NCBI GenBank assembly: GCA_002786025.1
Contig: NHNW01000086.1
Span: 1 to 64,000 of the forward strand
Reading direction: 5' to 3'
DNA from: Zasmidium citrigriseum
Lineage: Eukaryota > Ascomycota > Dothideomycetes > Mycosphaerellales > Mycosphaerellaceae
Length of the DNA stretch: 64,000 nt
Below are positions 14,415 to 17,400 of the stretch, in pieces. Numbering within the stretch: position 1 is the stretch's first letter; every line of letters begins with the position of its first letter. The translations under genes and the position numbers were made by a program. Below the pieces are notes generated by a model that worked only from the letters and a program-made list of their open reading frames with translations, searched no databases and was not told where the DNA came from.

Positions 14415-17400
14415 TTAGAACCCTCTTGCGTAGATGGCCATCGTCGTGCCCTGCGTTGCTGTGGCACTGCCACAAGCGCCTGCTGTCGAACCTGGCGAAG
14501 CACCGCCAATACAAACCGGACAGTTGTTCTCGCCTGCGTTGCCAGTCACTGCGCCGGCGCCGAGGAGACCACCTCCCGCCCTGCATCAACATCATCAGCG
14601 AACCTCACCAAAACCCAACATACCACCCAACCAAGGCAGAAAATCACTCACGTGACATAATTCACCGCATTCCCACAATAACAATCCACGCCACTCGTCC
14701 CGACATTCACCGTGCCAAAATAATTGAAACTTCCACTCGAACACCTCGCTCTACACTGATCGTTTGCGATGGTGGTGTAGGTTGCGACGAAGGTAGAGAG
14801 GGCGAGACCGGTTGTTGAGGTCCGGGTGCCGGTGTGCACGTAGCAGCCGACGTAGGCGTAGGTTATGCTGGAGGAGGCGGAGGGGCCTGGAGGGCGTGGA
14901 GAGGAGGTGTTAGTTGGGGGTTTTGGGGGAGGGTGGGGGAGGTGGGGACTTATCGGATGGGCCCTGGGAGAAGTTAGTGAGAGGGTGGAGTTTAGGTGAA
15001 GGGATGGGGGACTTACGGATGGGCCGGGGATGCCTTGGGTGCCCTGGGTTGAGGTTAGATTGTTGGGTTGGATGGGGGTTGGAAGGGAGAGGTACTGTTG
15101 GGCCCTGTGGAGGTGAGTTAGCTTGAAAGAGTGCGGGTTGATCAAGGAAGACCTACTGTTGCGCCTATGGCTCCAGATGGGCTGTATTCAAGTTAGAATC
15201 CTTGAACGAATGGATTTGGGTCAGATGTCGTACCCTGATGGCCCGGATGGTCTCATGAAATATCAGCAAGGCCTTGTTCCATTGTTCTGCAGGCTGATGG
15301 CAACTCACCCAACACTTCCTGTGGCACCAACTTGCCCGCTTACGCCTTGAGGTCCCTGATCCGCGCATTAGATCTCTTTGTATCTGCACATGAAGCGAAA
15401 GTTCATACAGAAGGGCCCTAGACTTTTGGTTAGCACCGTACTTTTCCCTTCGAGCATCAACCTTAGATCTTACTGTTGCTCCAGGAATGCCTTGACTTCC
15501 TTGCAGACCAGTCGGGCCCTACGAAATGTCAACAATGCCTCGAATCTGCATAGGGTCTTCCCGACTGACCGTTGGACCAGTAGGACCTGATGGACTATTT
15601 CACATTAGCATCGTGCTTTAAAGATCGATTGAATTGGGGCTTCTTACCCAGTAGAGCCCATAGCTCCCGTAGCACCTGTGGCTCGTAATCGAATGTCAGC
15701 CAGACTTCGGTGGAAAGCCTACGTTCAACTTATCTGTGGCTCCCATCGCTCCAACCTGGCCAGATACGCCGCTAGGTCCAGATGGACTATAGGATATTAG
15801 CATTCTGCTCATGTCCTCGATAGATATAGCATTGTTTACCCCGTAGAGCCCGTCGGCCCAGTCGCACCCGTGGCTCCAACTTGTCCAGAAGCGCCGCTTG
15901 GGCCTGAGGGACTGTCTACTATTAGCCTTCTATCCAGAGGCTTGCTGGGTTTGGAACCGTTTACCCTATAGAGCCTGTTGCTCCTGTAGCGCCGGTCGCT
16001 CCAACTTGACCGGATGCACCGCTTGGACCCTAGCCAGAGTAAGAAACCTCCCATGTTCCAGGTTGTTCATAACTCACGGATGGTCCTGTAGCTCCTACTT
16101 GGCCTGAGAGGCCGCTGGGGCCCTTGCGGCATTGTCAGAATCACGTTCTTGCTTCTACGCAATGAAGAAATCTTACAGTTGGTCCAGTGGATCTGCAATT
16201 TGTTAGCACGGAACGTTACTGCGCAAACGAGGAGAAAGATACTTACCCTATAGGCCCAGTCGGCCCCGTGGGCCCTGTTGATCCTGTTGGACCTGTGGGG
16301 CCAGTCGCTCCAACAGCACCAGTCGCTCCCGTAGCACCAGTTGCACCAGTGGCTCCCGTGACTCCTGTTGCTCCAGTAGGTCCTGTAGAACCCGTTGCTC
16401 CTACTTGTCCGGAAGCGCGTACAACCTGTTAGCAACCATTATCGTCAGGCGAGCAGAGAGACTTATCTGACGGCCTATGCATTCGTCAGAATCATAATCG
16501 CTAGAGTCAGTTGTGAAACAGCTTACCCTTGTATACCTTGCGGTCCTTGACTTCCTTGGCTCCCTTGAGCACCGCTCGGACGTGGAAAATGTCAGCTTGA
16601 TGCATTAATGTGTCGAAAGGCTGAGAGACTTATCTGCAGGACTACGTAAGTTAGCATCTTGAAACGCCTACTTAAAGTCGAAGGACTACATACCCAGTCG
16701 GTCCAGTCGGGCGTTCAAAAACGTCAGCTCCAGAAGCACGTGAAAGGTAATCGATCAGACTTATCTGTTGGCCTAACGTAAAAGTCAGCATCATCCACAA
16801 ATCTCCCATGTATGATCCTCACATACCCAGTCGGTCCAGTAATCGTAGACAGCACCAGCCCTTGACAACTCGAAGCAGCGAAGAGGCTGAGCTGGATATA
16901 CAAACAGCCGGGTGGCTGCGCATTCTCTTGGAACACTGCGAAGACTGTGCCATTCGGCAATGCACAGAACGACGCCTGTCCGTTGAAGAAAGCATCGTTG
17001 AACCATGTCAATGTCCCACCAGCGCCGATCGTAAACTGCGTTGTGATGAGTCCGGGAATGGTTGTGGGTGCAAATGGAGCGAAAGGTATTCCGGCTGTGG
17101 TTGAGTATGTGTATGTCGTTCCATTGACTGTCGCAGTGAGGACGCCGTTGGTGATTGCGTAAATGGGCGAAGTTGTGCAATCGTTGGTGATCGTTCCAAA
17201 GGCTGACATGTAGACCTGTCCAAGTCAATTCTTGACTATATCATGATCCTTCTTGCGATACCCACCGATCCCGCCTGTCTCTTTTCGTTGTTCCTGTCTC
17301 CAAGTACTAGCACTACGAATTCGGAATTTGAAAACGCCGGCGTTGGCGTGGCGGATATCGATGCCAGCTGGGCCTGCGAGGCAAGTGATGGCGAACGAAC

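Follow-up and report, generated by a model that had tools for sequence, protein, structure and literature searches.

Five short segments of a fungal collagen-like gene are very probably U2-type AT-AC introns, which the major spliceosome would remove from the transcript of a functional gene. This reading had been put forward in the original prediction, and at the DNA level it is supported by the best gene model, the donors and the branch-site spacing, from which we infer the splicing itself. Apart from their first and last base, the five introns carry the same signals as the other introns of the gene. In the mechanism we propose, AUAAGU would be recognised by the U1 snRNP through base pairs outside position +1, U2 would use CTRAC in the ordinary way, and A at position +1 together with the terminal C would substitute for the usual contact between the first and the last G. 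AT-AC introns are a known kind of intron; their cluster in one gene is the unusual part.

The collagen-like gene and its candidate AT-AC introns

The gene lies in a window of 64,000 nucleotides (the whole stretch of DNA analysed), which is part of contig C134 in a genome of 44.4 Mb and 148 contigs. The window contains 28 open reading frames of at least 230 aa; ten were put to Pfam and eight matched, with matches that include GWT1, Ada3, UTP15, a fungal-specific transcription factor domain, Xrn and Uso1/p115, on which basis we regard the genome as fungal. Positions 60001–64000 have a G+C content of 0.383, compared with 0.49–0.56 in the other 4-kb blocks.

The predicted protein comprises DUF7908, collagen repeats and a WSC-like C terminus (Pfam). 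In its spliced form it scores 112.1 bits with PF25485 and 126.1 bits with PF01391, and its C-terminal stretch reaches 26.5 bits with PF01822 (WSC), under the curated cut-off of 27.8. A search for a paralogue with the same introns returned eight matches of the spliced protein, all of which were this gene itself. A second, weak collagen match on contig C58 was rejected as a proline-rich protein by its reading, and the DUF7908 relatives on contigs C35 and C138 (loci L029 and L030) carried no ATAAGT on the strand scanned.

The gene model combines five AT-AC introns (introns 3, 5, 7, 13, and 23) with 19 GT-AG introns (Table 1). The sense strand of the gene carries exactly five ATAAGT hexamers (at 16764, 16633, 16466, 15733, and 14953), each preceded by G, and the antisense strand carries none. 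Excision of the five AT-AC segments yields an open protein of 659 residues, the collagen part of which consists of 89 consecutive, unbroken Gly-X-Y triplets. This agrees with the original prediction that every ATAAGT donor follows the G of a glycine codon and that removal up to AC restores the repeat in all five cases. Each AT-AC intron is preceded by an exon, and these exons measure 8, 8, 8, 53, and 10 nt in the best model.

Table 1. Features of the collagen-like gene in window coordinates (slashes mark splice junctions)
Feature	Position	Strand	Description
Collagen-like gene	14415..17673	(-)	Predicted: 25 exons, 24 introns, 659 aa (spliced model)
Microexon, 8 nt	16765..16772	(-)	Between introns 2 (GT-AG) and 3 (AT-AC), spliced model
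AT-AC intron 3 (candidate), 52 nt, phase 1	16713..16764	(-)	CAG/ATAAGT...CTGAC...GAAC/g
Microexon, 8 nt	16634..16641	(-)	Between introns 4 (GT-AG) and 5 (AT-AC), spliced model
AT-AC intron 5 (candidate), 52 nt, phase 1	16582..16633	(-)	CAG/ATAAGT...CTGAC...CCAC/g
Microexon, 8 nt	16467..16474	(-)	Between introns 6 (GT-AG) and 7 (AT-AC), spliced model
AT-AC intron 7 (candidate), 48 nt, phase 1	16419..16466	(-)	CAG/ATAAGT...CTAAC...GTAC/g
Exon 12, uninterrupted repeat unit	15840..15911	(-)	Closer homologue of the exon after intron 7 than of the exon spliced across intron 5
Direct repeat GAGCCACAG, 9 nt, upstream copy	15734..15742	(-)	Flush with the intron 13 donor
AT-AC intron 13 (candidate), 49 nt, phase 1	15685..15733	(-)	CAG/ATAAGT...CTGAC...TTAC/g
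Direct repeat GAGCCACAG, 9 nt, downstream copy	15676..15684	(-)	Flush with the intron 13 AC acceptor; ends in the alternative AG
AT-AC intron 23 (candidate), 58 nt, phase 1	14896..14953	(-)	CCG/ATAAGT...CTAAC...CCAC/g

Glycine frame, splice signals and competing readings

Exon boundaries in this gene can be checked from the DNA because glycine must recur at every third residue. Acceptors were listed at 40–79 nt from each ATAAGT donor if the glycine register held to the next intron or, for intron 23, up to where the WSC part begins. Whole gene models were compared in a dynamic-programming search that charged a heavy cost for a stop or a broken glycine base, with weights set by us and untrained. 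The first register-keeping acceptor was AC for all five donors, at 52, 52, 48, 49, and 58 nt. AC accounts for 67 of the 1063 dinucleotides inside the 24 introns, so that five out of five would arise by chance with a probability of about 1e-6, before correction for the selection made in the original prediction; such p-values are optimistic because the donors had been chosen ahead of the tests. Against this background, the recurrence of AC at all five first positions makes chance a poor explanation.

An alternative that we consider improbable keeps the AT donors and lets introns 5, 7, 13, and 23 end at AGs further downstream, with AC used at intron 3 only. Suitable AGs exist: in-register alternatives lie 70 and 79 nt from the donor of intron 5 and 66, 58, and 67 nt from those of introns 7, 13, and 23. 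The original prediction had held that neither intron 3 nor intron 7 has a fitting AG, which proved correct for intron 3 within the 79 nt examined and wrong for intron 7, where a TAG ending at 16401 keeps the glycine register. Introns 13 and 23 would be lengthened by 9 nt only, and the 9 nt added to intron 13 are its flanking repeat. The branch sites point to AC instead. CTRAC precedes AC in all five introns, as had been predicted, at a distance of 10–14 nt rather than about 9–13 nt, and a YTRAY motif lies 9–14 nt from the 3' end in 18 of the 19 GT-AG introns (intron 10 has none). The AT-AC introns match the gene's GT-AG introns in size and branch-site spacing, whereas from the branch motif to the nearest AG alternative of introns 5, 7, 13, and 23 the distance is 28, 28, 20, and 23 nt, and these AGs come after an AC that already stands at the first in-register position. 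When AT-AC and AT-AG were given equal cost with introns of up to 109 nt, all five introns were again chosen as AT-AC.

Exon homology bears on the same choice. The exon after intron 7 aligns with exon 12 without gaps over 38 bases, 32 of them identical (score 26); the homology starts one base ahead of the AC junction, and the AG alternative would skip 18 nt of the aligning stretch. Joined at AC, this exon scores 23 against exon 11, whereas joined at AG it scores 16 against both exons 11 and 12. Across the five exons used for comparison, joining at AC gave higher scores than joining at AG for exons 10, 11, 12, and 18 and a lower one for exon 13 (17 vs 18). The exon spliced across intron 5 is identical to exon 12 at 19 of 27 bases in an ungapped alignment, with six of eight matching before the junction.

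A very unlikely reading dispenses with AT donors altogether and places the ATAAGT segments inside longer GT-AG and GC-AG introns. With introns of 44–62 nt, the best model restricted to GT-AG and GC-AG breaks 23 glycine bases, compared with none once AT-AC is added and 3–21 when any single one of the 14 other NT-AN classes is added, so that AT-AC is the sole class among 15 single additions that leaves no glycine broken. Over the same lengths, with every dinucleotide pair at equal cost, the optimum contains exactly five AT-AC introns. If lengths of 40–109 nt are admitted, the GT/GC-AG-only model keeps every glycine, but it scores lower (−173.3 vs −151.9 with AT-AC) and relies on four GC-AG introns of 76–105 nt with poor donors (GCCAAC, GCGTTT, GCGTAT, and GCCCAT) and on two weak GT-AG introns of 98 and 68 nt (donors GTGCTC and GTCAGA), whereas in the AT-AC model the collagen region has GT-AG introns of 48–57 nt. 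One GC intron of the GT/GC-AG-only model also deletes 36 nt of exon 13, of which 27 agree with exon 12. With all pairs allowed and lengths of up to 109 nt, the optimum (−149.3) retains AT-AC only at introns 13 and 23, and introns 3, 5, and 7 give way to longer odd introns; with donor positions +3 to +6 ignored, four of the five junctions shift to other dinucleotides. As these models and the longer GT/GC-only model demonstrate, the frame alone does not force AT-AC; the frame, normal intron length and donor quality together do.

The donors of the five AT-AC introns are uniform beyond their first two bases. Positions +3 to +6 read AAGT in all five, compared with two of the 19 GT-AG introns, and G occupies −1 in each. 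Outside +1, the AT-AC donors form on average 6.8 Watson-Crick pairs with U1, the GT-AG donors 4.9. A compensating U1 was sought among at least nine U1 matches, obtained with 41 of 712 first-look candidates scored; none of these nine pairs with A at +1, because all nine begin with AUACUUACC and so have ordinary 5' ends. One of the nine exceeds the Rfam cut-off. Their first nine bases are identical and their stem-loops strongly different (loci L009–L017). Three U6 matches were recovered, all under the cut-off and each with ACAGAGA; the match at locus L031 (about 1501–1599) carries an apparent intron-like insert, GTAAGT...TACTAAT...TTTAG, after GGCC.

That the gene is instead decaying, with mutated donors, segments retained or mis-spliced and no full protein, seems most unlikely: intron 3, if retained, does add an in-frame stop, but the model stays open over 659 codons, contains 24 introns and leaves all 89 triplets unbroken, and donor loss alone would not yield paired A and C ends in five of five. 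No more probable is removal by another mechanism, whether through the U12 spliceosome, as twin introns, by splicing driven by RNA structure or by RNA editing. U12 introns typically have AT-AC ends, and three of the five segments sit 8 nt behind a GT-AG intron in a compound-intron-like arrangement. The donors, however, all read ATAAGT and not the U12 consensus ATATCC; the U12 snRNA model (RF00007) has no match in the genome, weak evidence given that 14 control genomes are equally silent. Intron 13 is separated from its neighbour by 53 nt, and the exon ahead of each AT-AC intron likewise speaks against twin introns. Compared with shuffled sequences, the folding of all five is unremarkable (z −0.62 to 0.98), and editing of the A would leave the terminal C unexplained.

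Rarity in the genome and possible origin within the gene

ATAAGT occurs 16,504 times in the genome and the reversed word 9,930 times. Our survey of donors covered ATAAGT preceded by CAG (CAGATAAGT); other contexts, such as the CCG of intron 23, fall outside it. Both strands of the genome hold 88 copies of CAGATAAGT, four of them in the gene, where a uniform rate would place 0.006. The AT-AC geometry, defined as CTRAC 9–14 nt before AC and AC at 44–62 nt, was present at all four copies in the gene and at one of the 84 outside sites, all of which were read (seven loci and 77 stretches). At this lone outside site (locus L071, G000:C57:141323-141673), the upstream frame is open over the stretch read, but after such a splice that frame continues for only 13 codons downstream. 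The reversed word of CAGATAAGT is found 166 times, compared with 88 for the word itself; these are raw, composition-blind counts, and the low count may hint at avoidance of such donors. In a sample of 185,152 bases from 29 sequences, two of 68 ATAAGT passed as AT-AC introns in open flanks, neither with coding-like flanks, by a coding score that is itself weak, as only three of the gene's five AT-AC introns pass the open-flank filter and all three score negatively upstream. Under a stricter geometry, none of 63 ATAAGT passed.

Phase 1 is common to the five AT-AC introns and does not occur among the collagen region's 17 GT-AG introns. Introns 3, 5, and 7 further share one architecture, in which a phase-2 GT-AG intron and an 8-nt exon are followed by the AT-AC intron, and the mutual likeness of these three units exceeds that of all 500 mononucleotide shuffles, in a test inflated by their shared splice signals. 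We infer, more weakly than the splicing, that introns 3, 5, and 7 may have arisen from one AT-AC intron through copying of the intron–microexon–intron unit within the gene.

Intron 13 may be related to these three and have been gained later. The repeat unit that it splits is uninterrupted in the copies represented by exons 11 and 12, and the intron is flanked by a flush direct repeat (Table 1). As a sign of target-site duplication this repeat proves little, because GT-AG intron 22 has one of the same kind (GGCCCATCC, 9 nt, flush) and the gene is repetitive. Dispersed copies of the intron were sought at CAGATAAGTCT sites, and the seven other sites (of ten) carry no such intron.

For the five introns together, copying inside the gene is suggestive only. 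With the donor hexamer and the last three bases removed, 469 of the 42,504 possible sets of five introns show a mean similarity as high as that of the AT-AC five or higher. The most similar of the 276 intron pairs is intron 7 with GT-AG intron 8, the pair of introns 7 and 13 has a similarity score below zero, and intron 23 is absent from the ten window matches of the R1 profile (introns 3, 5, 7, and 13). In the 3' part of the gene, introns 20–23 (window 14954–15181, minus strand) are accompanied by neighbouring short exons of 25, 9, 27, and 10 nt; these short exons and the GGCCCATCC repeat suggest repeated exon–intron duplication there. The full scenario would be that an AT-AC intron multiplied locally in one gene, each time splitting the GG of a glycine codon (phase 1) and carrying its strong ATAAGT donor and AC acceptor with it, so that the transcript came to depend on five first–last A–C splicing events by the major spliceosome. 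We offer it tentatively, as a possible history that we would not favour at present. Introners offer a partial parallel, as introns 3, 5, 7, and 13 are somewhat similar and the repeat at intron 13 is flush; a difference is that no copies were recognised beyond this gene among the sites examined.

Relation to known AT-AC introns

Convincing minor introns are reported from neither Ascomycota nor Basidiomycota in the survey consulted (PMC10639083). Yeast lacks the U12 spliceosome and has an AT-AC junction in SUT635 (PMC6726248), and in a mutated yeast intron AT-AC was the most efficient pair after GT-AG (PMC6726248, crediting Parker and Siliciano 1993). The SUT635 protointron, with AT-AC ends spliced in a fungus that has no minor spliceosome, is a counterpart of the candidate introns described here; it is, however, a single intron of a non-coding RNA, used alongside GT-AG (PMC6726248), whereas the collagen-like gene would need five for its protein frame. 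Sodium channel genes likewise hold U2-type AT-AC introns, such as SCN4A intron 21, with the same AT and AC ends, a U2-type donor and G at +5 (PMC2831892). Those introns are animal and, in the view of that paper, U12-derived (PMC2831892), whereas the present five lie in one gene of a fungus whose genome gave no match to U12 RNA. The U2-type AT-AC state has been described as possibly a trap, as exit requires both ends to change simultaneously (PMC2831892), and the same logic would fit these five introns too.

Reported frequencies in fungi vary. AT-AC accounts for 0.03% of introns in SnowyOwl fungal gene models (PMC4084796) and for 0.09–5.19% across fungal pathogens (PMC6176087), a range whose upper values would, if they hold, make AT-AC far less rare; CT-AC is commoner than AT-AC in fungal annotations (PMC7072748), and AT-AC junctions are present in Fusarium graminearum (PMC3577648). 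The F. graminearum data (PMC3577648) and the SnowyOwl models (PMC4084796) share with our case the occurrence of rare AT-AC introns in fungal genes; they differ in giving frequencies or lists of rare junctions, with no within-gene cluster mentioned in the relevant portions of these sources. An open-access search made no literature on an AT-AC cluster in a single gene evident.

U2-type AT-AC introns are thus known and rare in fungi. Gene finders restricted to GT-AG and GC-AG introns would misread this gene. Five AT-AC introns per message under a strict Gly-X-Y frame would offer a natural system for testing how the first and last intron bases contact each other and, if the reading is true, also for studying the efficiency of AT-AC splicing in fungi and for the origin and spread of non-canonical introns.
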